From: Pelagicoccus sp. SDUM812003
Lineage (GTDB): Bacteria; Verrucomicrobiota; Verrucomicrobiia; Opitutales; Opitutaceae
Reading direction: 5' to 3'
Assembly: GCF_031127815.1 (NCBI RefSeq)
Contig: NZ_JARXHY010000012.1
Span: 1-64,000, forward strand
DNA length: 64,000 nt
Of the stretch, positions 26,141 through 41,849 are shown one piece after another. The first letter of the stretch is position 1. Every line of letters starts with the position of its first letter. Below the pieces are notes generated by a model, which was not told where the DNA came from, did no database searches, and was given only the letters and a program-made list of their open reading frames with translations. The position numbers were made by a program, and so were the translations under genes.

Positions 26141-27769
26141 CTAGCGCCGGTCCAGGTCTCGGTGGCCGAACGGGACTAGTTGGGTTTCCTGGGTCGTGAA
26201 CTGCGAGTCGTTGACGGAGAAGATGGGTGGGGCGGCATCTCTGTCGCGATCGAAATGGCAGTGGCGAAATTCGATGCCTTTCGCATCGTCGAGCATGATG
26301 GCGGGCCGGGCGTCCTCCTTTAGCAAGGAAGAGGAAACGTCGGAAAACGTGACGTTTCTCGCGTGCCGGATGTAGAGCGCATACGCCGGCAGGAGGCCGA
26401 ACATGCTAGGTTCCGGATAGGCGGCTGGGCGTTCCGGTACGTGGAACGGGTCGCGCGGACCGGTAACGCCGGGTTCGTCCGATCGGAGGAAGAAGGGATT
26501 GACCAGGCTTGGGTCTTGCTGAGCGACTTGCTCCAGCGAGAGCCCACCACGGTAGTGGATGCGAATGTTGCTGAATCTGATGTCTTCGATTTCGTGTCCG
26601 GGTTCGCCTACGATCTGAGACGCGTATCGGGAATCTGCATCGAATACGTTGACGTTGGAAATGGATACACGGCGGAGCTTTCCGATGGGAGTGCCCTCGG
26701 GGCCGCGGGCGCGGTTTCCCAGACGGAGGAAAAAGGGAGAGTTGGCGATGTGGCGCATCGTAATGTTGGATACAACCACGTCTTCGATAGTAGCGCCATC
26801 GACGGTCTCCAGGGCAAGGCCGCGACAGTGGTCGAAGAGGCAGTTGGTGATGGCGATGTTGCGAAAGTCGCCATTGGACTCGGTGCCGATCTTGATTCGT
26901 CCAGTCGGACCGTCGCCGTCCGTGGCTTTTTCGAAGCTGCGATCATAGATTCCGTCGATGAGGGAGCCGACCTGGTAGCCGCTGACCAAGCAGTCGGAAA
27001 TAGTGATGTTTTCGCAGCTTCTCAGCTCGTTGAGAGCGTAGGAGGTCTTGAGGACGATCCCGTCGTCGAAAGGGGAGTTTATGGAGCAGTTCGTTATGCG
27101 AACGTTGCGGCAGCAATCGATGTCCAGCGCGTCCCGGTTGGTGTCAACCGTGATGCGGTCGATGGTGAGGTTGTCCACCCCGGTGGCAAGCAACGCGAAG
27201 TGCCCGCCGCGAAAGAGGGTGATGTCGCTCAGCGTGACGTTACGGCAGTTTTTCAAAGCGATGGCCTTGTTAGCGAAGTAGGGCTGCTCGCCGAGCTCGT
27301 AGTCGTGAAAGTCATCAATCTTGCCGTGGTTCGGTCCTTGAAACGGATTCGGCGGATCGCCGACTCGATCGATGTGGTGCGCCCCGCGCAGGGCGCGACC
27401 GTCGATGGCCCCGAAGCCGATGATGGCGATGTTCGTGAGGTTTTCTCCGTAGATGAGGCTGTTGCGAAAATAGCTGTGCCCAAAGTCCTGATACTTCTTC
27501 GATCCCGATTCGCTAGACTCTGGCAGGTCGTATCCAATCTTCCGATCAGGATCAGGATAAGCGGCAACCAAAGTGGCGCCGGCTTCCAGGTGGAGGGTCA
27601 CGCCGTCGCGTAGGTGGAGGGTGTAGCTAAGGTAGGATCCCGCAGGAAAGACGACGGTGCCGCCTCCGGAAGCGTGAGCGTCATCGATCGCGCTTTGGAT
27701 CGAGGCGGTGTCGTTCGTCTCGCCGTCGCCGCGAGCTCCAAAATCTAGGATCGTTTTTAGGAAGGGCAT
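26141..27769 (-). CDS. GH28 family polygalacturonase-like glycosidase
   Basis: 542 aa. A right-handed beta-helix enzyme: N-terminal ILDFGARGDGETNDTASIQ is the standard GH28 opening, the catalytic region reads TVDTNRDALDIDCCRN followed by SINSPFDDGIVLKT (conserved Asp residues), and RIKIGT gives the Arg-x-Lys substrate motif. The canonical NTD is NRD here, a common variation in exo-acting or rhamnogalacturonan-directed GH28. No signal peptide is visible from the ATG at 27769; the frame extends only to a GTG at 27808. A cytoplasmic enzyme acting on imported oligogalacturonides is therefore possible. It is divergent from the LRR-BACON gene. Confidence 0.88.
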   Translation of the reverse strand: MPFLKTILDFGARGDGETNDTASIQSAIDDAHASGGGTVVFPAGSYLSYTLHLRDGVTLHLEAGATLVAAYPDPDRKIGYDLPESSESGSKKYQDFGHSYFRNSLIYGENLTNIAIIGFGAIDGRALRGAHHIDRVGDPPNPFQGPNHGKIDDFHDYELGEQPYFANKAIALKNCRNVTLSDITLFRGGHFALLATGVDNLTIDRITVDTNRDALDIDCCRNVRITNCSINSPFDDGIVLKTSYALNELRSCENITISDCLVSGYQVGSLIDGIYDRSFEKATDGDGPTGRIKIGTESNGDFRNIAITNCLFDHCRGLALETVDGATIEDVVVSNITMRHIANSPFFLRLGNRARGPEGTPIGKLRRVSISNVNVFDADSRYASQIVGEPGHEIEDIRFSNIRIHYRGGLSLEQVAQQDPSLVNPFFLRSDEPGVTGPRDPFHVPERPAAYPEPSMFGLLPAYALYIRHARNVTFSDVSSSLLKEDARPAIMLDDAKGIEFRHCHFDRDRDAAPPIFSVNDSQFTTQETQLVPFGHRDLDRR

Positions 27770-27982
27770 AAAGGGCCTAATTTGGCGCAAAACCTGACTA
27801 CCTACCACGCCGAAAGGCGCATACAGTCAGATCGGTGGGGTGCACTGCAATTTCAGTTTTGAACGTCACTTAGAAATTAAGTAGATACACGAGTAAATGT
27901 CTCGCTTCGTGTAAGCGCAATTCCCATATAGTCGAAATTGCTTCGTGGTTATACTCCGAACAAAGGTCCCAAACCCCATCTC

Positions 27983-30900
27983 ATGCGTTCTCCCCGATTT
28001 GCCCTGTTGGCCTTCGTCCAACTCAGTGTAGCTATTTTGTCAGCGAGCGGAGCCGAAATCTCTATCCCTGACCCCAACTTGGAAGCCGTCCTACGCGAGG
28101 CCTTGGCCAAACCAACTGGAACCCTAACGGATGCCGATCTCGCTACCCTGACCTTCCTCGACTCAAGCGGGTATTCGCTGGACGAGTCCGAGCGTATATC
28201 GGATCTGACGGGTTTAAATTACGCAGTGAATCTGGAGGAGCTGCGTTTGGACTATCATGAAATAGAGGACTTATCGCCACTTTGGACGCTGGAGAGTCTA
28301 CTGGGACTATCGATGATCCACAATCGAATTGCCAGCATCGGTATCTTGGCGGCTATCCCACAGATCGAGTTGATCGACCTGAGACACAACCAGATTGAGG
28401 GAATCTCTGCATTGTGGGGATTTGACGACTTGGGGTACCTTGATCTGTCCTCCAATTTCATCGACCTCGACGACGCGTCAACCTCGAGCGTCGTCAATCA
28501 CCTTCAAGGGGACGTGGCGGATCTCGATCTGTCTGACCAGCGAACGAAGTCGACTGAGATTTCTTCCCACGACACAGTATTTTCTTCCGAAGGTGGCACT
28601 GGCTCGATCGCCGTAAGCTCGAGTACGAGTTGGGCCGTCTCGGCCGATGTGGATTGGATCGAGATAGACCCCGAGATTGTGTCGGGATTCGAAGATGGGA
28701 TTGTCCCATTCACTGTTTCGGCTTTGCCGGAGGGGGACACGCATCGCATTGGGAAGATCTCGGTGGAAGGGGTTTCGGTCGAAATCAGTCAAGGTGAACC
28801 TGTGACCGTTGAGGTAGCCGATAGCGTATTGGAGCAAGCAATACGTCTGGAACTCGATACGACAGTAGCGGCGCTGACGCAAACGCATCTCGCTGCCCTG
28901 ACCAAGCTTAGAATAACAGCGGAGGACTTTGAGTCGCCCGACGCTCCTTTGAGCTCCCTTTCCGGCTTGGAGCATGCGACAAATTTAGAAGAGCTCGTTG
29001 TAAGCGGTTCCGATGTCTCGTCGTTGCAACCGATCTTGAATTTACCGAATCTGCAAACTTTGTATATCGATGGTGGATACTTAAGCGGACCTATCGATCT
29101 CTCCGACGCGAGCTCTCTGCGTTTCCTTACTCTAGCCGATTGCGGTCTCACCTCGCTGCCGAGTTTCTCCAGTTCGGTCGTAAACTTGTCGCTAAGTGGA
29201 AACGAAATCATCGATTTGGCCCCGCTCGCTGCTAGTACTCAACTAGAGTTCTTGAGCCTGAGTTATAATCGGATTTCCGATATTTCGCCAATTGCTGATT
29301 TGTCGGAATTGAGGAGTCTGTACTTGGATAACAATCTGATTCGAGATGTCGGTTCTCTCGAGGGGCTGGATCAGCTATCGGACCTGCAAATATACTCCAA
29401 CCACCTTGTCAGCATCGAATCGTTGCTTGGCTTAACGGCTCTTTCCTCTTTGGGGCTGCATTACAACTATTTGGACCTCTCCGCTGAGAGTTTGCAAAAC
29501 GAGTTTTTGCAGGAGCTTTCAGGGCGAGGAGTTTATATTGCTAACACGGTCCAATTCTCTCCAGAACCGATATTATCTGACTCGAGTTCGACTATCGGGG
29601 CAGAAGGAGGCATTGGCGAGATTGCCGTTTCTTGCAGCACCTACTGGCAAGCAACTACGGAAACGGAGTGGATCAGCGTGGTGGGAGATGCTAGTGGCTT
29701 TGGGGATGGCGTGATTGCCTATCAGTTGGAGTTCGCTCCCGATTTGATGGCTCCCCGCACTGGTGCCATAGAAGTTAACGGAGTTCGGATCGAGATCACC
29801 CAAGATGTCGAAGTGGATATTCCGGATCCTGTATTGAAGAGTTCACTACGCGCATTATTTGGTGGCCAAACCGACACCATTTGGATGACTGATTTGGCAT
29901 CGCTAACATCATTATCGATCAACGGGAGTAGCAGCTCGACGGGTGAAGCTCTTTCTGATCTTAGTGGGCTCGAGTATGCTGTCAGTCTTGAGTCGATAGA
30001 CGTCACCTATTCGTTGATCGAAAGTCTCGATCCCATTCGTGACTTGAGCTCGCTCCGTACGATTCGAATCGCCCATTCTGAGCTCCTAGATCCGGGCGAT
30101 CTGTCTGGATTGGTCAATCTCAACAGTTTGGATCTTAGCTCGAATCGTTTGGAAGCGGTACCAATCGTGCCAGCCTCGATTCAGACGCTTAGTTTCACGA
30201 ACAATCAAATAATCGATATAAGCGAAGTGGCAGGTCTGTCCGATTTGGAGAGCCTTAGTCTAAGCGGGAACCTAATTGAGGATATTTCTTCGCTGATCGG
30301 TCTGGATTCGTTGAAAACCCTGTATCTCAATGGGAATCAAGTCTACAGAACGACGGCCCTGCGGTCGCTAGTCGGATTGCAAACACTCGGCCTGGAACGC
30401 AACCATCTCGATAGCATGGTCGATTTAGAGGAGTTGAAAGACCTCTCAAACCTTTGGATCAGTCACAATTATATCGATTTCGCGGAGCCATCTGATCGGC
30501 TAGCGCTAGACGCTTTCAAGCAGCAGGGAGTCAATTTCATCAACGGAACGACGCAGAACCCCAACGTTACAAGTATTGGTCCGATTCTTACTCAGATCGG
30601 TCAAGCGGGAGGGAGTCGCACCCTCAGTGTCGCAGCGAATAGCTATTGGTCTGCTTCAACGGACGTTGATTGGATCACTGTAGTGGACGGTGAAGAACGC
30701 TTCAGCTCGGGAACGCTCACACTCGAGATAGCTGCCGCTCCGGATTTGGAGTCGAGCCGTACGGGGACCGTGAAAGTGGGTGATAACGAATTGAGTGTTG
30801 CCCAGTATTTGGATGCTCCGCCCCTTGATCCTGTAGTAGAAAAGTCGGTACGGATAGCGCTAGACAAGCCAGAAGGCCAGCTGCTTGAGCCCGATATGGA

Positions 30901-33520
30901 GCAGTTGTTTGTCCTGACGATCGAAGGCGATCTGGGTTCGGGTGGCGCTCAATCACCGGTATCGCTGTCGGGCCTAGAATTCGCGACGAACCTCGAAAGG
31001 CTTTCCGTAATAGAGTCAGACATCGAGGACTTAGCTCCCATTAGTCTTCTGTCCCGTTTGTCCTTCCTGCTGTTTTATAAGACGACTCTACCCGAAATGT
31101 TGGATTTCGGGTCTATGCATTCCTTGGACTACCTGGTGATAGATCACTGCGGACTCGAGCAGACACCAGTGATTCCAGACAGCCTCACAACCTTGAGTTT
31201 GCCCAACAATCAGATCGAACAGCTGGACTCGCTCGAAGGCAAAACGTCGCTGACTGAACTGTATCTCTCTTGGAATGAGATTTCCGACCTTTCATCCCTA
31301 GCCACTTTGACGAATCTGGAGAAGCTCTCTATCGACAACAATCAGGTGCGGGAAATCGATCCCATCAGCAGCTTGGAGTTCCTTGAATCCCTGTTCATTG
31401 GAGACAACCATCTTAGGTCGATAGAAGCACTGGCTGGTCTATCAGCGCTTAAGGAAGTGTATCTGACTAATAACTACATAGACTTTGAGTATGGTAGCGA
31501 TGAGTATAGTCGCTTGGAAACGTTGATCGCTAGAGTGCCAACGGTTCACTTTGAAGGTCAGCTGACGCAAGTGTACAAAGTGGAACCACTTGGCTCGCTG
31601 GTGGGCCAAGCTGGAGCGATTCGGAGGCTTTCGGTTTTTTCAACGACCTTCTGGGACGTTGGATGCGACGCGGAGTGGATCGAAATTCTTGGGGCCGAGC
31701 AGCGCTTTGGGAATGACATCGTCGAGTACCGTATCGCTCCAGCAGCAGAGCTGAGCGAACGCAGAACCGCTACGATAGTGGTCGGCGAGGTAGAGGTACC
31801 CATCACGCAGTACCTAACGGTCGAGATCGAAGACAGGGCTCTTCGATATGCCATTCGTAGCGAACTGGGAATAGCTCGGGAGGAAATACTGGATGTTGAT
31901 CTGGAGAGGCTCACTTATCTCTCCGTAGGCCAAGACAGTTTCCCTGATTCGACATGGAAGGTTGAGAGGCTGGACGGACTGGAGAACGCGAGCAATCTGG
32001 AACACCTAAGCTTGAGGCAACAAAGGGTGGCTAGTCTGACTCCAATCGCGAATCACAAAACTCTGAACTTTCTTCAAATCAGCGAAAACGAGGCGAAGCT
32101 CGGATCGATTGAATCGCTGGAGGAGATGGATAATCTGGAAATCCTCGGTATTTACGGAAGTGGACTTGCTGAATTGCCCACACTGCCAGCGGGGCTAAAG
32201 ACGCTTGCGGCGACTCAGAATGAGATCAGCGATCTCGAGCCGCTAAGGGGGCTAGAGCATTTACGGTACGTGGAAGCGGCGAGGAATGATCTATCGAACC
32301 TGAACGCCTTGAAAGGCCTGACCTCTCTCGAATACCTTTACCTCGCCGAGAATAGAATCGATGATATTTCGGGATTAGCTGGTTTAACCAATTTGGAAGA
32401 GCTGACTATCTTCGGCAACCGAGTGAGGGATTTGCGAAGCCTTTCGGGTTTGCCGAAGTTGAAGGATCTGAATCTCTCTATGAATCACGTGCGAGATCTC
32501 GAGGGACTTGAAGAGTTGCCAAGCTTATTGAAAGCAAACCTGTCTCTTAACTTCGTCGACGCGCCCGAGGGTAGCAGGAATTCAGAAATCGTGCAGAAGC
32601 TGATAGATGAGAGCGTCGGAGTCACTATCGATACTCAGCAGCCCACCGACGCTTATCTCGACTATGAAACGTTCGATACAGGGTATTGGGAGAGCGAATA
32701 CGCAATCGCCGTCTCATCGCTTACCTATTGGTCCGTGTCGGTCGATCAACCTTGGGTCGAGGTTTCGACAACCGAAGGCTTTGGGATCGGTCATTTTACC
32801 ATTTCTCTCGCGGAAAATCCTTCTGATCAGAGTCGTATCGCAACGGTAGTTGTCGAGGGATCCGTTTTGGAGATTAGACAAAATGGTAGTGGTTCTGAAT
32901 TGAGTCTAAGCATCTCTCACCGCGAGATTGGTTTCGAAGCGACACAATTCGAAGTCGAAGTAACCTCGGATGTGCATTGGACTGCTGGGTCTGATAGTAG
33001 CTGGCTTACGCTTCAAGGCAGAGAGGGGTTTGGCAGTTCGGCGATTCGGGTTTCCGTCGCCCCAAATTATTCAAACGCCAAGCGGACTGCAGTGGTGTCG
33101 ATCGGTCCAAAGACGCTCACCGTCGTGCAGAGAGTGGATGCGGAGTATTTTCTGTTCCTAGATACATTGACCGTCGATGCGACTCAGGAGATCAACTGGC
33201 CAGCGGCGGACGCAGATGGGGATGGCGCGTCCAACATCGAGGAGTTCATTATCGGAACCGATCCTTTCGACGCGGCCTCGAAGCCCGTCCTAAAGGTAAC
33301 GATGGCTGACGAGACGCTCAGTCTTCTTTCGAACGTAGGTAGGTCGGGAGTGTCGTTGACCTACGAATACAGCGAAGATATCGTGAATTGGCAGACCTTC
33401 GCGCCAGAAGCGAGTGCGGTCCAGGAAAACGGTCTCGTGAGAGCGAAGGTCACCTATCCCGAGGGAGAATCAGGCCGCTTCTATCGTGTTGGTTTCGATA
33501 GGCAGACTGTATCCGAATAG
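27983..33520 (+). CDS. Giant secreted protein alternating LRR blocks and BACON domains
   Basis: 1845 aa with a signal peptide (MRSPRFALLAFVQLSVAILSASGAE). Five leucine-rich-repeat blocks of the internalin/SDS22 type each start with a helical cap like IPDPNLEAVLREAL...LTDADLATLTFL, at about residues 25-190, 275-525, 611-860, 946-1192 and 1280-1553. Between and after them are six BACON-like beta-sandwiches (about 198-275, 530-611, 863-945, 1198-1280, 1556-1636, 1638-1718), each with a W...TDVDWI-type core and a T-V-G-V-E-I-x-Q ending. A DADGDGASNIEEF linker (about 1742) leads to a short C-terminal beta domain like that of the RCC1-repeat protein. The gene is visibly more AT-rich than its neighbours. 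It is probably a surface adhesin or polysaccharide-binding protein. Confidence 0.88.
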   Translation: MRSPRFALLAFVQLSVAILSASGAEISIPDPNLEAVLREALAKPTGTLTDADLATLTFLDSSGYSLDESERISDLTGLNYAVNLEELRLDYHEIEDLSPLWTLESLLGLSMIHNRIASIGILAAIPQIELIDLRHNQIEGISALWGFDDLGYLDLSSNFIDLDDASTSSVVNHLQGDVADLDLSDQRTKSTEISSHDTVFSSEGGTGSIAVSSSTSWAVSADVDWIEIDPEIVSGFEDGIVPFTVSALPEGDTHRIGKISVEGVSVEISQGEPVTVEVADSVLEQAIRLELDTTVAALTQTHLAALTKLRITAEDFESPDAPLSSLSGLEHATNLEELVVSGSDVSSLQPILNLPNLQTLYIDGGYLSGPIDLSDASSLRFLTLADCGLTSLPSFSSSVVNLSLSGNEIIDLAPLAASTQLEFLSLSYNRISDISPIADLSELRSLYLDNNLIRDVGSLEGLDQLSDLQIYSNHLVSIESLLGLTALSSLGLHYNYLDLSAESLQNEFLQELSGRGVYIANTVQFSPEPILSDSSSTIGAEGGIGEIAVSCSTYWQATTETEWISVVGDASGFGDGVIAYQLEFAPDLMAPRTGAIEVNGVRIEITQDVEVDIPDPVLKSSLRALFGGQTDTIWMTDLASLTSLSINGSSSSTGEALSDLSGLEYAVSLESIDVTYSLIESLDPIRDLSSLRTIRIAHSELLDPGDLSGLVNLNSLDLSSNRLEAVPIVPASIQTLSFTNNQIIDISEVAGLSDLESLSLSGNLIEDISSLIGLDSLKTLYLNGNQVYRTTALRSLVGLQTLGLERNHLDSMVDLEELKDLSNLWISHNYIDFAEPSDRLALDAFKQQGVNFINGTTQNPNVTSIGPILTQIGQAGGSRTLSVAANSYWSASTDVDWITVVDGEERFSSGTLTLEIAAAPDLESSRTGTVKVGDNELSVAQYLDAPPLDPVVEKSVRIALDKPEGQLLEPDMEQLFVLTIEGDLGSGGAQSPVSLSGLEFATNLERLSVIESDIEDLAPISLLSRLSFLLFYKTTLPEMLDFGSMHSLDYLVIDHCGLEQTPVIPDSLTTLSLPNNQIEQLDSLEGKTSLTELYLSWNEISDLSSLATLTNLEKLSIDNNQVREIDPISSLEFLESLFIGDNHLRSIEALAGLSALKEVYLTNNYIDFEYGSDEYSRLETLIARVPTVHFEGQLTQVYKVEPLGSLVGQAGAIRRLSVFSTTFWDVGCDAEWIEILGAEQRFGNDIVEYRIAPAAELSERRTATIVVGEVEVPITQYLTVEIEDRALRYAIRSELGIAREEILDVDLERLTYLSVGQDSFPDSTWKVERLDGLENASNLEHLSLRQQRVASLTPIANHKTLNFLQISENEAKLGSIESLEEMDNLEILGIYGSGLAELPTLPAGLKTLAATQNEISDLEPLRGLEHLRYVEAARNDLSNLNALKGLTSLEYLYLAENRIDDISGLAGLTNLEELTIFGNRVRDLRSLSGLPKLKDLNLSMNHVRDLEGLEELPSLLKANLSLNFVDAPEGSRNSEIVQKLIDESVGVTIDTQQPTDAYLDYETFDTGYWESEYAIAVSSLTYWSVSVDQPWVEVSTTEGFGIGHFTISLAENPSDQSRIATVVVEGSVLEIRQNGSGSELSLSISHREIGFEATQFEVEVTSDVHWTAGSDSSWLTLQGREGFGSSAIRVSVAPNYSNAKRTAVVSIGPKTLTVVQRVDAEYFLFLDTLTVDATQEINWPAADADGDGASNIEEFIIGTDPFDAASKPVLKVTMADETLSLLSNVGRSGVSLTYEYSEDIVNWQTFAPEASAVQENGLVRAKVTYPEGESGRFYRVGFDRQTVSE

Positions 33521-35314: not shown

Positions 35315-37633
35315 ATGAGCGATGGAACACCTGACTATCTGGTGCCGCGTATGGGTGACCTTCCTGTGTCCTCTTCGCGATTTTATCAAACTGCTTCTAT
35401 CACTCGCATGCGTGTGCCGCCTTCAGCCGATGGCGGACAGCCGCTCGAACTGAGGCCGATTGAAGGATCGATTCCCGCCCCGAGACCTGGTTCCTTTTCG
35501 ACGGGCCTGCCCGCAGAAGGCGTGCTACTAACGCACGAACAGAGTTGGATCATACAAGGCACGGCCCTCGGCCCGCTTTTGCACAGCGTTTGTCTTGCTC
35601 CGGGAGAAATCACGCAAATCGCAGTCAGCAACCGAACAAGGAGCGTATTGGAAAACTCGGTCGATAAAGGGCTGCAACAGGAAAACCTCGCCCAAAGCAG
35701 CGACTCCACGAGTTCGTTGCACGAGTCGGAAGACGCCAAGACCAAAGATTCGCAATCGGGAAGTTCGGTCGCTTCCAGTAGCAGCATGTCGAGCGAGGCT
35801 GGGGTTGGCGGTTTGCTTGGGGGCCTGGGCGTCTCAGCGGGTGGAGGGTCGAATCTCGCGGCGAGCAACCAAGCCAGCGTCAGTACCGGGAATCGATCCG
35901 TTGCCGATCAGTCTAGCCAGTCGTTGCACCAACGCGCTCAGGTGGAGGCGAGACTGGCCCGGGCCCGTCACACCGCGTCCATCCGTGAAGTATCGGAGTC
36001 GGATAGCTTGTCTCTCGAATCGCGGGTGGTGGCTAACTACAACCACATGCACGCCTTGACGATGCAGTACTTCGAGGTCGATCAGGTATACCGGCTTCGG
36101 ACGCGTGTCACCAGCGCGGAACGGCTCATCTTTTTGCCGATCCGCCAAATCGATTTTCTCAATGAATCGGAAACCAAAGCCGCGATTCTTCGCTATGAGA
36201 AGCCCCTCATTGAGGCGACTCGCGACTTGGGCCTAGATCGCTTGGCGGCGAAGATCCAAGCGGAGGGCTGGAAATTCGAGAAGGAACAGGCGAAGGCGGC
36301 TCGGGAAAAAACGAAACGCCAGGTCCCGAGTGCACCGACTAATCTCACGGTGTCAGCCGGTGATGAAGGCGCCGTGCTTAGCGCGGAAGAGGTAATTGTC
36401 GATGTCGACCTCGAACGTGAAAAGCTGGAAGAGGCAGGAGCGGTATCCAACATACAAAGACTAGAGAACAAACTAAAGGATACGCGGGCCGATCTCACTG
36501 AGGAGCGTAAGATCAGAATCGCTGCCGAAGATCGCGTTCTTGAAGCACGGGATTCCTTGCGGGAAGCAGGCGACATCGGCTTGGCGGCGCGAGCGAGGCT
36601 TCAGCGTGAACTCTCGACTGCGAAGGCGGAGAAGATCGCGGCAGAGCAGAAGATTGAAACGATCAAGAAAAACATCGATGAACTAAGGGCAAGGCTTCAG
36701 CGCGAACGTCGTGTCGAAGCGGATACAGAAGCGGCGGAGAGCATTAGTTTCAAGGAAATGTGCGAATTGATGGACGAGCATCGCGTCGCCCTCAACCAAG
36801 GGCTTTGGCTTCGCCTGGCTCCGAGTACGACCTCGGCGTTTCTTCGTGGTCGAGTAGCCCGGGGCGAATCCTTGGGAGATACTGTCGATCCCAATCCGGT
36901 CGCCGTCTCGGGTAACTATCTGGGCTTTCGCTGGCGCTTTGCTGACGACGACGCGGCGACCACGTTTGAAAAGCAATACCTCAGCAGCGTTGAGCTCGAA
37001 GACAGCGTAGCGCTTTCTACGGGCGGCGTATTCGGCGAAGCAGTACTTGGCGAATCGAACGCTTCCGAAAAGATCGATCTCACCCGATTCTGGAACTGGA
37101 AAGACGCTCTCCCACCAATCATGCCCGCTGAGATCGGTCCGCTGGGACAGCAAAAACTGGATACGCTGCAGACGGCCTCGCCCGCCAGCGTGCCAGATTC
37201 GAAAGTCGACCCGGGCCCGATTTCGTTCCCTCAAGTCGCCTCTGGTATTCCTTCCATAACTGCGGCCTTGTCGAATCCCGATCTTTTCCGCGACATGAGC
37301 GGCAAGGAGACGACCGCCGCCCTCGCGAAATCGGCCCTCGAGCTATCTTCCGCAGGCGCCAGCGAGGCAGGGCGACTCGCCAGCGAGAACTACAAGAAAT
37401 TCCTTTCCCTGCAACGAGCGGTTGCTTCATCGGTTTTGGACGCCACGAAGCAGAAGGATCTCGACCCGACCATCGCTGGTGGCGTCCTAAACTCGGAAGA
37501 ATCCGCCCTCGGCGTCGCCGATAAGACAGAGGAAACGAGCGAGGACAGCGGGGGCGACGAAGAACTCGATGTCGTTTTTGAACCGGAGGAAACAACCGAC
37601 AGCACTCCAGCCCCGAACCCCTCGAATCCATGA
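35315..37633 (+). CDS. Uncharacterised coiled-coil protein, paralogue A
   Basis: 772 aa, no signal peptide or membrane segment. Order: an N-terminal region with GPLLHSVCLAPGEITQIA (residues 87-103); a Ser/Gly-rich low-complexity tract (about 145-200, including SSVASSSSMSS and GGLLGGLGVSAGGG); a highly conserved block RVVANYNHMHALTMQYFEV (237-255) then AERLIFLP (268-275); a coiled coil rich in Glu, Lys and Arg (about 365-475); NQGLWLRLAPS and SGNYLGFRWRF (494-542); TGGVFGEAVLGESNASEKIDLT (569-590); and a C-terminal FRDMSGKETTAAL (658-670). The next gene encodes a paralogue with the same order of blocks and overlaps it by 4 bp (ATGA). I do not recognise the family. The absence of export signals suggests a cytoplasmic scaffold or a substrate of a dedicated secretion machine. 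Confidence 0.85.
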   Translation: MSDGTPDYLVPRMGDLPVSSSRFYQTASITRMRVPPSADGGQPLELRPIEGSIPAPRPGSFSTGLPAEGVLLTHEQSWIIQGTALGPLLHSVCLAPGEITQIAVSNRTRSVLENSVDKGLQQENLAQSSDSTSSLHESEDAKTKDSQSGSSVASSSSMSSEAGVGGLLGGLGVSAGGGSNLAASNQASVSTGNRSVADQSSQSLHQRAQVEARLARARHTASIREVSESDSLSLESRVVANYNHMHALTMQYFEVDQVYRLRTRVTSAERLIFLPIRQIDFLNESETKAAILRYEKPLIEATRDLGLDRLAAKIQAEGWKFEKEQAKAAREKTKRQVPSAPTNLTVSAGDEGAVLSAEEVIVDVDLEREKLEEAGAVSNIQRLENKLKDTRADLTEERKIRIAAEDRVLEARDSLREAGDIGLAARARLQRELSTAKAEKIAAEQKIETIKKNIDELRARLQRERRVEADTEAAESISFKEMCELMDEHRVALNQGLWLRLAPSTTSAFLRGRVARGESLGDTVDPNPVAVSGNYLGFRWRFADDDAATTFEKQYLSSVELEDSVALSTGGVFGEAVLGESNASEKIDLTRFWNWKDALPPIMPAEIGPLGQQKLDTLQTASPASVPDSKVDPGPISFPQVASGIPSITAALSNPDLFRDMSGKETTAALAKSALELSSAGASEAGRLASENYKKFLSLQRAVASSVLDATKQKDLDPTIAGGVLNSEESALGVADKTEETSEDSGGDEELDVVFEPEETTDSTPAPNPSNP

Positions 37634-40188
37634 GCGCCGCACGATCAAACACTTGGCAAAACGCCGTCGACAAGCACTTCGCCCGTGCTCGCAGACAGGA
37701 GAAAGAAAGCGGCGACCGATTTGCCCCCAACGTGGATTTGCCACTGTCGCACGTGAAGGTCTACGAGACGCTGACCATTACGGAAGTCGATCCGCAGGCC
37801 GAGCAAACGGCGGAGCTGGACCAGCCTGTCGATCTCTTGCAGGTCGATCCATCCGCTCCGTTGATCGGTGGTCCGGCGGTTGGCGTCATCTTGCGCTACG
37901 AGCAAGCGTGGCGCATGAAAGGACTCTCGCTCGGGCGCTTGTTGCACTCGCTTAGCTTAGCGCCGGGAGAGGTCACTCAAGTGGCCATGGTCGATTGGGA
38001 GCGAGGCACTCGAGCTGGAACATCCGAGGATGTGGATGAGGCGGAAGACGCTTCAAAGTCCGCCAGTCGCGATCGCATGTCCCATGAAGTGACTCAAGCA
38101 GTCGAGAGTGAGGTCACTGCCGGTGGTTCGTCGACCCTCTCTTCCAATACCCAAGTGGATGGAGGCATCGGCGGCGTGCTGGGTTTTCTCGGGGGCAGCG
38201 CTTCGGCATCTGCCAATTCCGGGATCGCTACCAGCGCGAACTGGAGCACAGGCTCTCGAAACGCCAGCGCGGATTCGTTGCAGAAGATCAGAGAAAAGAC
38301 CGCTCAACACGCGGCCAATACGCGATCTCGCAAGGCCACGCTGGTGCAGGAAGTTTCCGAAACTCAGACCGAGCAATTTAAGACGCGAGTGGTGGCAAAC
38401 TACAATCACATGCACTCGCTCAACATGCAGTACTTCGAGGTGCTGCAAGTGTATGAGCTAGCGACCCGGCCAGTGAAAGCTGAGCGCTGTCTATTTCTGC
38501 CCATGCAGGTGATGACGTTCGATGATGAAACTGTGAGGGACTTCTCAAAGCCGCTCTCGAAGGCAGCTTTCGCCATGGGCATGCCAGTCTTGGCCGAAGC
38601 CATTCTCCATTTCGGGCTGACTCAGGAACAGAGTGAAAAACAGATCGAGTCCCACCTCACCAAAGTCAGCTTAGCGAAAAGAAGTATTCAAGCATCGACT
38701 ACGAATCTTGAAAGAGCCAAGGGGAACGTGAGCCGTTTGGAAACGGAGCTTCCTCGCTCGCAGAGGACCCTTGACGATGCGAATACCAAACTTTCCGAGT
38801 TGCTCCAAGAATTGGATACGATCGAACGCAGGCAAGTGGAACTTCGATCGGAGAAGGATCAGCTCGCGAAGAGCCAAAGAGAAACGAGAAAATCCAAACA
38901 GCAGCTCGATCGGTCGATTCAGAAGGCTCTCGATGAAGTCAACCGATTCAGGATCCCGGGGATGCAAACGTTTCACTCGATCTCGGAAGTCGAGTCTTTC
39001 TTCGAAAATTCAGCGTTTAGCGGCATAGCCGGATCGATCCGTCCCACTCTGGCAAAGGTCCGTGCGGAAGAAGCGGCGATTGAAACCCAAATGGCTAAAA
39101 ACAAAAGCCTAGAACTCGCCATCACGAACGCGCAAGCGGCCCTTGTGGCTCAGAGCGCTAACCTGAAGACAGCAGCGCAATCGGCCCGCCGGACGTTAAC
39201 AGCGGCTGAAACGGTCCACTCAAAAGTGAAGTCTCGGCTTATCGCAGAAAAGAAGGCGGTCACCACCGCCAGAGAACAACTGGTCGCAGCCAAGGAAACG
39301 TTTGAGGAAGCCCAGAGGTTACACGCCGCAGCGATCGCCGGATCAGAAACGAAAAGCGAAGATCTCAAGTCGCGGCTAAACGCTCGAAAACTGGAATTCA
39401 ATCAAGCCATTTGGGCTCAGTTCGATCCCTCGTCGGTCGAGGCAATTCTGGCGGGCCGCGGTCATCAAGGCTTCTCGCTCATCGACACGGTGAATCCGAA
39501 GCCCATGGCCATCATCGGGACCTACGTCGGATTCCGTTGGGGCTTTCCAGACGACAAAGCGGGCGTCGCCGCGGAAAAGGAATTTTCCAAACGTTACCTC
39601 GATGACTTCAGTGATGCCGCATTGGATACACATGTTCTGCCTACCGGAGGCGTCTTCGCGGAGGCGGTACTGGGTCGAGCGAATGCGGCGGAGAAACTGG
39701 ACATCACCCGCTACTGGCATTGGGACAAGGATACGATTCCGATTCAGCCGACCGCCATTCGCAAGCTCACCCAGCAGCGCCATGCGGCGAGAGCCCAAGC
39801 CAATCCAGGCGCGCTCGGCGATCCGGTCGTCCGAACGGAGGCCTTGCCGACTGCTCCGCCTGGTCCTGGGCACGAGATGGCGAACGTCATCGCGGCCTCC
39901 GCGTTTCGCGATATGAGCGGATCGGGAGTGATCAAAGATCTGCTCGAAGCTGGCCAGAAAGCGGCGAAGGATGGAAGCGCCAACGCCCAGGAACTCGCCC
40001 ATAAAAATATCTCGGAGTACATCGATCATATCGAGCAGCTGCTGCCCGAAGTGACCAATCTGATCGGTAGTGGAAAACTGGATCCCTCCACCATGGGAGC
40101 CCTAAACAACGCCTTGGGCGAAGGGGGAGCGATCAACCCGGAAGCTCTCCTAGGGCTGGCATCCGAAGCCGGTCTCATGGCGCTCTAA
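37630..40188 (+). CDS. Uncharacterised coiled-coil protein, paralogue B
   Basis: 852 aa, no signal peptide. It shares every conserved block with paralogue A: GRLLHSLSLAPGEVTQVA (102-119), a Ser/Gly/Ala-rich tract (about 163-212), RVVANYNHMHSLNMQYFEV (253-271), AERCLFLP (284-291), a long coiled coil in two parts (about 335-440 and 475-585), NQAIWAQFDPS with GTYVGFRWGFP (591-640), TGGVFAEAVLGRANAAEKLDIT (672-693) and FRDMSG near the C-terminus. The coiled coil is about 100 residues longer than in A. Its start overlaps the stop of gene A (ATGA), so both are made in coupled fashion, as expected for subunits of one complex. The function is unknown. Confidence 0.85.
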   Translation: MSAARSNTWQNAVDKHFARARRQEKESGDRFAPNVDLPLSHVKVYETLTITEVDPQAEQTAELDQPVDLLQVDPSAPLIGGPAVGVILRYEQAWRMKGLSLGRLLHSLSLAPGEVTQVAMVDWERGTRAGTSEDVDEAEDASKSASRDRMSHEVTQAVESEVTAGGSSTLSSNTQVDGGIGGVLGFLGGSASASANSGIATSANWSTGSRNASADSLQKIREKTAQHAANTRSRKATLVQEVSETQTEQFKTRVVANYNHMHSLNMQYFEVLQVYELATRPVKAERCLFLPMQVMTFDDETVRDFSKPLSKAAFAMGMPVLAEAILHFGLTQEQSEKQIESHLTKVSLAKRSIQASTTNLERAKGNVSRLETELPRSQRTLDDANTKLSELLQELDTIERRQVELRSEKDQLAKSQRETRKSKQQLDRSIQKALDEVNRFRIPGMQTFHSISEVESFFENSAFSGIAGSIRPTLAKVRAEEAAIETQMAKNKSLELAITNAQAALVAQSANLKTAAQSARRTLTAAETVHSKVKSRLIAEKKAVTTAREQLVAAKETFEEAQRLHAAAIAGSETKSEDLKSRLNARKLEFNQAIWAQFDPSSVEAILAGRGHQGFSLIDTVNPKPMAIIGTYVGFRWGFPDDKAGVAAEKEFSKRYLDDFSDAALDTHVLPTGGVFAEAVLGRANAAEKLDITRYWHWDKDTIPIQPTAIRKLTQQRHAARAQANPGALGDPVVRTEALPTAPPGPGHEMANVIAASAFRDMSGSGVIKDLLEAGQKAAKDGSANAQELAHKNISEYIDHIEQLLPEVTNLIGSGKLDPSTMGALNNALGEGGAINPEALLGLASEAGLMAL

Positions 40189-40211
40189 AAGAAACAAGAG
40201 GAGATATTGCC

Positions 40212-41801
40212 ATGGCTCGACGGATTTTTAGTTTACGCGATCAGAGATACGACACCTACCAGAAGCAGATAGGATCTGTAAGCGCTTGGCTGATACGCTG
40301 CCTGGAAAAGAGCGGGCGACCCAGCGTGAGCTGGACCGCGTCCCAGCGGAATAAGACCAATGCCGCCCTGGCAAACATTCCGCAAAATCAGCAGGATCTA
40401 TTCGCTGGCTGGCGAGGGCTGGGAGTTCCAACCGCGGGTCACTGGAAGCTGGAACATGGAGGTTGGGGCGAGTATTTCATGTCCATCCTAGCGGAGCCAG
40501 GGAGTCGGACCAGCTTACACGGTTCGGAAGCCAAGAAAGCCCTGAAACGCGTCGTCACCGCCTCGAGTCGCGTGCGAATCATCACTTTCAAAGTTCGCAA
40601 GAAGGGCGGAAGTACACGCCTTTTCGCCATGGCGGCAGTCGTGGAGGAAGACCAGGTCCACCTCTTCGATCCGGCGGTTGGACTCAGCACGGTCGACGTC
40701 ACAGAGGCCTTCTATTGGTTTGGTCGGTATATGGATAGCAACTACGGCCCGAGCGAAGCGATCGAGCAGTGGCACACCTATCTCGTCACAGTGGTCGACT
40801 TGTTCTTCACTTGGTTCGGACCACCGCCCCAAGCGAATCAGGCCGGGCAGCATCCGGACACCATGGGGCCGGACAAAATTGCGACTTCGGGCTTCGCAGA
40901 TCCGTTTCCGCCTCGCGTCAAGTTCTGTTGCGAATTGTCACACGTTCGCCACTACAAGCAGGTTTTACCGAGGACGGTCGACGTCTTCTGCCCAGATGAT
41001 CTCTTACCTGGAGGACAGCTTGATTCCGGGCCGCAAATGCAGAAGCCGGATTACAACCAGCTGGACAGCTGCGTCGCCTCGATTTTATCGAAATCCACCC
41101 GAGCGGGGAGCACCGTTCGCGAACGCGTGAATGCAAAAAACATCTGGTCGCTCTACTGTATCTGGAAGTTTGGTGGGTATCACATGGACAACGGAGTTAT
41201 TCCTGCCCGCGATGGAGCAGGGGAACTTCATTTTCCGGTTCCCGAAACCTTTGGCATCGCCGAGATTTCCGGACTTTCGGTCCAGGATGGGCATGCGCCG
41301 ACTCCGCGCAAGGTGAGCCATTGGAAGGGCGCGTTTGGGAAATCCGGTTTTCACTGCGCGGCGATCCGCGACGAAAATGGCTTCCTAGTAAATGAGTTGC
41401 TGGCGAAAAACGGTCTCAAAGCGCTCAAGACCAAATTGCAGTTGCACGACAAGTTCGACGTCTGGCTCATGCGAGCGCCTCGTGGAGACCGAGCGGTTCG
41501 CCAGGCCCTGAAATTCTACATCTATCTTTGGTACAAGATGGATGAGGTCTTCAGCGAACACCATGCGAAGCCGGCCTTCCGTTTGGACAGCGAATTCTAC
41601 AAAAACGCCAGTCGTGCCTCTATCCTCTCAGCAGTCGCCACCGGCATGACGCATCCCGAAGCGAATAGCGGGAAATGTAGCGCTCTAAAATCGTTGCCGG
41701 CCCATAGCCTCATGCCAGCCATCAATGACAACGCTCGCGGCCTTGCGGTCTACGTCGATGAGTTGAAAGTGCGAAAAATAGGGTTTCGCAGTCACGGCTA
41801 G
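40212..41801 (+). CDS. Uncharacterised protein, third gene of the coiled-coil operon
   Basis: 529 aa, no signal peptide, preceded by one of the best Shine-Dalgarno sequences in the window (AGAGGAG, 9 nt before the ATG) and only 23 bp after paralogue B. Residues 1-200 end in HLFDPAVG, which recalls the H-x-F-D-P-N-x-G region of YopT/C58-type cysteine proteases, but the expected Gly-x-Cys near the N-terminus reads GSVSAWL. Residues about 308-330 (AKNIWSLYCIWKFGGYHMDN) recall the SDILR...GGxYxDxD motif of GT-A glycosyltransferases such as clostridial toxins, but the second Asp of DxD is Gly. Both resemblances are weak. It may be a degenerate enzyme, an effector-like protein or an unrelated new fold. 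Confidence 0.8.
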   Translation: MARRIFSLRDQRYDTYQKQIGSVSAWLIRCLEKSGRPSVSWTASQRNKTNAALANIPQNQQDLFAGWRGLGVPTAGHWKLEHGGWGEYFMSILAEPGSRTSLHGSEAKKALKRVVTASSRVRIITFKVRKKGGSTRLFAMAAVVEEDQVHLFDPAVGLSTVDVTEAFYWFGRYMDSNYGPSEAIEQWHTYLVTVVDLFFTWFGPPPQANQAGQHPDTMGPDKIATSGFADPFPPRVKFCCELSHVRHYKQVLPRTVDVFCPDDLLPGGQLDSGPQMQKPDYNQLDSCVASILSKSTRAGSTVRERVNAKNIWSLYCIWKFGGYHMDNGVIPARDGAGELHFPVPETFGIAEISGLSVQDGHAPTPRKVSHWKGAFGKSGFHCAAIRDENGFLVNELLAKNGLKALKTKLQLHDKFDVWLMRAPRGDRAVRQALKFYIYLWYKMDEVFSEHHAKPAFRLDSEFYKNASRASILSAVATGMTHPEANSGKCSALKSLPAHSLMPAINDNARGLAVYVDELKVRKIGFRSHG

Positions 41802-41834: not shown

Positions 41835-41849
41835 CCCGGACGGTCCGGG
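41835..41849. terminator. Possible bidirectional terminator hairpin
   Basis: A perfect 6-bp palindrome CCCGGA-CGG-TCCGGG lies between the convergent stop codons at 41801 and 41858. On the minus strand it is followed by TTTGAG, so only a weak U-tract is present. Confidence 0.4.

Follow-up and report, generated by a model that had tools for sequence, protein, structure and literature searches.

Tandem paralogues of Pelagicoccus sp. SDUM812003 belong to a scattered prokaryotic protein family with exchangeable parts and a predicted aerolysin-like core

Results

Two tandem genes, A and B, in a 64,000-nucleotide stretch of Pelagicoccus sp. SDUM812003 DNA (the window, meaning the whole stretch that was analyzed) encode members of a protein family that occurs sporadically in archaea and across several phyla of bacteria. 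Its members share a core in two conserved parts; the domain lodged inside this core can be exchanged, as can, in the relatives of A and B, the C-terminal tip. For the core, modeling predicts very long strands arranged in an aerolysin-like sheet, with a Ser/Thr/Gly-rich hairpin held within it. Largely from these features, we tentatively infer, with slightly less than even confidence, that A and B are a polymorphic, probably pore-forming released carrier, which would act as an A+B mixed oligomer with the product of a third gene, C, as the payload.

Gene A (35315..37633, 772 aa), gene B (37630..40188, 852 aa) and gene C (40212..41801, 529 aa) are located on the forward strand, as are all features given below. 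These open reading frames agree with the preliminary description of the locus, including the 4-bp overlap (ATGA) of A and B and the 23-bp gap between B and C. The absence of an export signal, also claimed there, is in accord with the three N-termini, in which none was apparent by eye. A Shine-Dalgarno-like purine-rich stretch is located 5′ of C and a weak terminator-like hairpin (41835..41849) is located 3′ of it; in the 8 kb scanned, 17 terminator-like sites were found versus 10.0 expected. Promoter-like sites were not in excess in the scan around the operon (2 found, 2.8 expected), and no RNA family scored over threshold at the locus.

Judged by their sequences, A and B are true paralogues. 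A BLASTP alignment of the two gave 35% identity over 351 aa (192 bits, E 2e-55) and a second segment with 31% identity over 303 aa. When B was shuffled 500 times, 366 of the shuffles aligned with A at all and the top score was 37 bits, in a control that was run without composition adjustment, unlike the BLASTP of A and B itself. All five of the blocks proposed to be shared in the same order were found in both proteins. One of these, RVVANYNHMHxLxMQYFEV, is encoded at 36023..36079 in A and at 38386..38442 in B, where it lies across two predicted long strands, and the second half of the core, from TGGVF to FRDMSG, is encoded at 37019..37303 in A and 39643..39921 in B. The core halves are separated by a variable insert, which is coiled-coil-like by eye in A (36140..36793) and contains a predicted coiled-coil hairpin (38632-39342) in B (38503..39399). 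The block spacing is unequal, as was described, but the AERxxFLP-to-TGGVF distances differ by 87 residues (293 versus 380) and not by more than 100. Similarly, the picture of conserved aromatic and His blocks around a variable middle was retained, but the coil cannot be regarded as the core of the family: it is an insert, and its place is often taken by another domain in relatives. The strongest conserved blocks are predicted to be on long beta strands. Formation of an A:B hetero-oligomer would be plausible, given that tandem pairs also originated independently in two other lineages (L017 and L022).

The family was called undescribed, and we found no model for it in the libraries used (Pfam, NCBIfam, PHROGs, and PADLOC), nor any linkable published work under toxin, pore-forming, Hedgehog, DUF2272, and conserved-motif topics. 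Most of the relatives examined are longer single genes in which the core is kept and the C-terminal tip is exchanged. For instance, the cores of members L018 and L028 are 87% identical over 659 aa and their tails are unrelated; the L028 tail has a relative in the distant member L021 (33% identity over 204 aa, E 3e-23), the cores of these two being 33% identical. Tips recognized by Pfam are DUF2272 (L005, L016, and L055), the Hedgehog N-terminal domain, a tip type that is also M15-like (L024, Hedgehog-N at E 6e-54), and OmpA (L052, E 3.5e-6); the similarities of tips to M15 and GH19 (E 0.16) are weak. A Hedgehog-N tip occurs in a Micromonospora member. Many tips are preceded by a short conserved stretch. 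The insert also varies, being a tectonin domain in L006 (E 1.3e-8), a coiled coil in the model of B, and a predicted beta domain in L015. By structure comparison, the L015 insert is a beta sandwich of the lipid-binding type (PLAT/C2), similar to the N-terminal domains of lipoxygenases and to the C-terminal domain of a toxin. Members of one clade (L029, L030, L053, and L054) are tipless and are directly followed by a conserved second gene.

This architecture is similar to that of the polymorphic toxins (Rhs, PVC-type, and others), which have been described as having a conserved N-terminal part and a highly variable C-terminal domain (PMC3482391). The A/B family keeps its N-terminal part, varies its C-terminal domain, and carries the short stretch before many tips, although the trafficking and repeat domains usual in polymorphic toxins were not recognized by Pfam and a search for recurrent neighbors brought up no immunity gene. 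A conserved carrier with exchanged C-terminal domains is therefore a feature of the family, of which A and B are tipless members.

The core model, which is of moderate confidence, consists of five very long strands around the Ser/Thr/Gly-rich hairpin. The best 50 Foldseek matches listed for this model were all pore-forming toxins or pore-type translocases; 11 of the matches listed had E ≤0.001, and the top match was the aerolysin pore (7.9e-5). The model of B itself also matched aerolysin (E 4e-3). A further Foldseek match was to a giant-virus protein (Yasminevirus A0A5K0U6Q4, E 1.1e-5, 15% identity). The hairpin segment has a mean Ser/Thr/Gly/Ala content of 66% (23 rows); in 19 of these 23 it ranks within the richest 5% of the respective protein. 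It corresponds to residues 149-190 of A (35759..35884) and 165-206 of B (38122..38247), which we propose could form a membrane hairpin. A hydrophobic hairpin tip was not enriched family-wide in a within-protein comparison. When 27 members were compared with Pfam, none hit a model of pore-forming toxins at E 0.1, and the family profile gave no toxin match in the PDB, where the best rows were serpins (E 1.5).

Among the closest known counterparts is the aerolysin family (aerolysin, lysenin, epsilon toxin, and parasporin-2), for which PMC9558359 gives as hallmark a pre-stem loop with two adjacent beta sheets. The putative likeness lies in the five very long predicted strands, with the Ser/Thr-rich hairpin between the second and third, and in the top Foldseek matches. 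However, the A/B family shows no sequence match to aerolysins, its toxin likeness is weak with a second structural aligner, its core holds a large exchangeable insert and is followed by exchangeable tips, and no signal peptide is seen by eye in A or B. A reading of the coil alone as an alpha-pore was set aside because the coil of B aligns with many unrelated coils. For helical pore domains of the XaxAB/AHL type, it gave a generic coil match only; SMC and chemoreceptor coils fit the B coil equally well or better. A difference from the coiled-coil-bearing alpha-pore toxins of two components (XaxAB, AHL, and SMH) is that in the A/B family the beta core, rather than the coil, is conserved.

The claim that no enzymatic domain is present was nearly right, with two weak similarities in C as the exception. 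Residues 106-167 of C (40527..40712) align to positions 114-174 of the 205 in the profile of Peptidase_C58, the YopT-type papain-like family, with E 0.0079 for the whole protein and 0.0021 for the first 200 aa. These scores (16.3 and 18.2 bits) are below the Pfam cut-off of 23, and inspection by eye did not reveal a complete set of active-site residues. Residues 198-351 (40803..41264) align weakly to residues 4-157 of the glycosyltransferase LtpM1, with E 0.041 and for one chain only, over a stretch that includes the sugar-nucleotide-site region. Of five donor-site residues named as important in PMC6393602 on LtpM, a GT-A-type enzyme, three are kept in C and two are not, according to a by-eye mapping that relies on an inferred offset in numbering. 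C was found in 1 of 387 genomes of the phylum sample, namely the source genome itself. The remaining 199 of the 200 genomes searched from its bacterial family gave no credible match, the plasmid, phage, and viral collections gave none, and no counterpart was found among the ORFs at 26 loci harboring relatives of A/B. Since C occurs in no other genome searched, the proposal that A-B-C is a conserved three-gene system is unsupported. C is, on its sequence, an orphan and a possible payload or enzyme.

Discussion

If A and B are a pore-forming carrier, they would leave the producer by lysis or by another route, as suggested by the lack of a visible export signal. Subunits would then bind the target through the variable insert, here the coiled coils, and oligomerize, such that the hairpins are pushed into the target membrane. 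This could damage the target or give a payload the chance to act. For the relatives that bear a tip, the fused tip would serve as payload; here, A and B, both tipless, would assemble into a mixed oligomer, which fits the repeated tandem doubling in the family, and the separately encoded, papain-like or glycosyltransferase-like C would be their payload. The wider proposal, that the family is an unrecognized pan-prokaryotic class of pore-forming polymorphic toxins with an aerolysin-like core, varied binding inserts, and varied C-terminal enzymes, and that this operon splits it into an A+B coiled-coil pore and a papain-like/glycosyltransferase payload, we regard as rather unlikely in its full extent.

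The part of this picture that concerns C has its own rival, in which C is merely downstream and functionally unrelated to A and B. This would be compatible with any reading of the pair and, although somewhat improbable, deserves the most weight among the alternatives. The missing counterparts at the 26 loci and the failure to find relatives of C in any collection favor it, while the shared strand, the 23-bp gap, and the purine-rich stretch before C argue for a functional link. A partner gene would also not be unusual, because a conserved second gene directly follows the tipless members of the L029/L030/L053/L054 clade. For A and B themselves, an unlikely alternative is a carrier without a pore, in which the long sheet would serve as a stalk or scaffold, presenting exchangeable enzymes and binding modules on a cell surface or within the matrix, for example for wall or polymer remodeling. 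Several of the tips have a connection to walls or polymers (DUF2272, OmpA, and, weakly, M15 and GH19), and the DUF2272 relatives include the peptidoglycan amidase Tse1 (PMC10318531). The lipid-binding-type sandwich of the L015 insert and the lack of enrichment of a hydrophobic hairpin tip are also consistent with a scaffold, but the Foldseek ranking of the core, the conservation of the Ser/Thr/Gly/Ala-rich segment, and the absence of an export or anchor signal by eye point away from it.

Bacterial gasdermins pierce the membrane of the producer itself, and A and B could similarly be triggered by infection to act from inside, as an abortive defense. The sporadic spread of the family, the lack of an export signal, and a Polaromonas member close to restriction, TIR-domain, PIN, and HigA genes would fit this reading. 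We consider it improbable, as several of the tips (OmpA and DUF2272) belong to extracytoplasmic types, the genes around A-B-C are ordinary, and PADLOC gave only weak matches located in the coil, on which basis a known defense system was rejected. Least probable, and very unlikely, is that A and B are structural proteins derived from a phage or an injection machine. In its favor, a remote relative in one phage-labeled contig was matched by the longer member L015, the L026 member is directly followed by a tail-collar gene, and a lone sheath-like gene, whose surroundings were read by eye, is present on another contig of the source genome. However, a comparison of B with 50,697 phage records yielded no match, 16 pattern matches to the family in viral contigs yielded no confirmed relative, and PHROGs families matched A and B only weakly; a phage or structural protein was rejected on these grounds. 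Membership of a contractile injection system was likewise rejected, as a model search found no VipB in the source genome and the sheath-like gene was the sole find. The 10 neighboring ORFs scanned in the window are ordinary genes and include no sheath, tube, or baseplate gene. The preliminary suggestion of an effector or injection-like complex survives in its effector flavor, through the swapped tips of relatives and the pore-forming-toxin-like structure matches, but not in its injection-like part. Neither an empty site nor synteny was established in a genome of the same genus (G448): of 12 proteins from both flanks in the window, only the right-hand DUF2238-like protein was found in its 19-kb piece, and just two of eight genus genomes, the source included, have it.

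Our preferred reading, that of a pore-forming carrier, concerns a toxin-like family that is present in several bacterial phyla and archaea and has no model in the four protein libraries used. If the core pierces membranes, aerolysin-type pores and exchangeable C-terminal enzymes, which are usually separate, would be joined in one polypeptide, and the tandem tipless pair with its separate C would provide a direct test case for a mixed oligomer whose payload is supplied in trans. Should the pan-prokaryotic pore-forming class be real, the Yasminevirus structural match and the Micromonospora Hedgehog-N tip would tie the family to eukaryotic biology. That bacteria use the Hedgehog N-terminal domain as one of several interchangeable tips is relevant to the connection of Hedgehog with bacterial peptidases (PMC6027127, PMC8052667).

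Two tandem paralogues and a third gene

The three ORFs proposed in the preliminary description, all on the + strand, were borne out in the same order: gene A (35315-37633, 772 aa) overlaps gene B (37630-40188, 852 aa) by 4 bp, and gene C (40212-41801, 529 aa) follows after 23 bp, as had been stated. All five blocks (LAPGExTQxA, RVVANYNHMHxLxMQYFEV, AERxxFLP, TGGVFxEAVLGxxNAxEKxDxT, and FRDMSG) were found in both A and B in the same order; the stretch between AERxxFLP and TGGVF, however, measures 293 vs 380 residues, a difference of 87 rather than the more than 100 claimed. Homology between A and B extends through both conserved parts (35% identity across 351 aa, E 2e-55), and curated families gave weak matches only, most of these in the coil. 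The genome is a draft (5.75 Mb, 88 contigs), and the nearest genes are ordinary among the 10 neighboring ORFs scanned: to the left lies an MFS transporter, and to the right are a membrane protein weakly resembling DUF2238, a phosphorylase, and an alanyl-tRNA synthetase. Upstream of the operon, 27938-33520 encodes a protein of 1860 aa that carries numerous leucine-rich repeats and BACON domains.

A widely but thinly spread family with exchangeable parts

A, B, and their relatives form a family with a core that is predicted to be long-stranded, in which both an insert and the C-terminal tip are exchanged. A profile built from 23 rows, A, B, and many of the searched loci among them, finds 39 ORFs: besides A and B, every one of the 33 examined loci (L005-L030 and L050-L056) contributes one or more. 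One scan of named genomes gave 47 pattern matches, 23 of them confirmed as relatives, a lower bound because two peptide patterns only were used; the confirmed relatives lie in Pseudomonadota, Actinomycetota, Myxococcota, Bacteroidota, Acidobacteriota, and one thaumarchaeal MAG. Plasmid records matched in 27 of 72,556 cases with B as query and 29 of 72,556 with the relative L015, by genus 18 Streptomyces and otherwise Haladaptatus, Novosphingobium, Ruegeria, Embleya, Nostoc, Caballeronia, Polaromonas, and Psychrobacter, annotated, where at all, as hypothetical, DUF2272, or OmpA family protein. Since A/B matches are rare in the phylum (3/387 sampled genomes, own counted) and in the taxonomic family (1/200, its own), horizontal acquisition is likely. 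A member with a DUF2272 tip occurs on L055 (MT835996.1, human feces), an unverified contig labeled phage that may be bacterial, as the record is unannotated. In Micromonospora sp. HK10, the tip is a Hedgehog N-terminal signaling domain (L024:12083-13042, Pfam E 6.4e-54).

A tree of 23 rows places A and B together with the members from Nisaea (L020) and Alteromonadaceae (L012) with support of 100/99; all four proteins are short, lack a tip, and sit on long branches that the tree does not order among themselves. Tandem copies are sister pairs within L017 and within L022 (each 100/100), and doubling therefore occurred more than once. L012 and L020 hold one copy each within the stretch examined, and thus A-B is not a fixed ancient pair.

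Comparison of the loci found no recurrent neighbor beside the main family. The sole recurrent co-directional next gene adjoins tipless members of a divergent clade (L029:5314-6039, L030:12213-13610, L053:11072-12310, and L054:11154-12152); these second genes have in common a stretch about SRIPxPRNITExGGYLNL, and the one in L053 has no Pfam family. In one gammaproteobacterial MAG, the gene immediately after a tipless member encodes a phage tail collar domain (L026:3738-4286, E 1.8e-15). The window's own genome has a phage-tail-sheath-like gene on contig 27 at about 26632-28197 (L061:8633-10198, Phage_sheath_1C E 6.6e-10), which looks isolated, the other genes in 15 kb being judged by eye.

Gene C is a candidate enzyme

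The searches found no relative of C: its own genome and 387 sampled genomes of the phylum gave C alone. Of 200 genomes of the taxonomic family, 25 gave a match at E 1; apart from C itself none was convincing, and the best of the others (E 0.0055) lies in an interrupted frame. No match was found at E 10 in two genomes holding A/B relatives (G023 and G235), and plasmids, phages, and viral contigs gave none; the best E for any ORF from 26 loci harboring A/B relatives was 1.2 (BLAST) or 0.19 (phmmer). Weak similarities were to Peptidase_C58 (E 0.0021-0.0079, below cut-off), the NCBIfam YopT-type family (E 0.16), and the glycosyltransferase LtpM1 (E 0.041). C keeps three of five LtpM residues discussed in PMC6393602 (alignment judged by eye). 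Judged from sequence, C is a candidate enzyme whose activity cannot be assumed.

Proposed function and relation to known systems

The most likely reading, which we hold tentatively, is a polymorphic, pore-type carrier that we infer would be released from its producer, with A and B assembling as a mixed oligomer that would insert into the membrane of a target and C acting as payload. Repeated doubling fits such an oligomer. Among the main rivals, a display scaffold without a pore is unlikely, an intracellular defense pore more doubtful still, and a phage or injection part highly improbable. Whether C is unrelated to A/B is a separate question, compatible with any of these readings; we consider it a real but minority prospect.

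The proposal that the system is undescribed holds for the core family, which seems so within the protein-family libraries and literature searched; no published account was found in work on polymorphic toxins, aerolysin-like proteins, or Hedgehog/peptidase links. The principle of pairing a constant carrier with interchangeable tips, which the A/B family shares, is already known from polymorphic toxins. What would be new, if true, is an aerolysin-like core carrying a swappable insert, and such a core split into a tandem pair with a third gene. We keep the family outside the aerolysin family because a sequence test of membership failed and the fold comparison, made on a predicted model, gave mixed results. 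The core model has a Foldseek match in a giant virus, a Yasminevirus protein of 642 aa (BFVD A0A5K0U6Q4; E 1.1e-5, prob 1.00, 15% identity).
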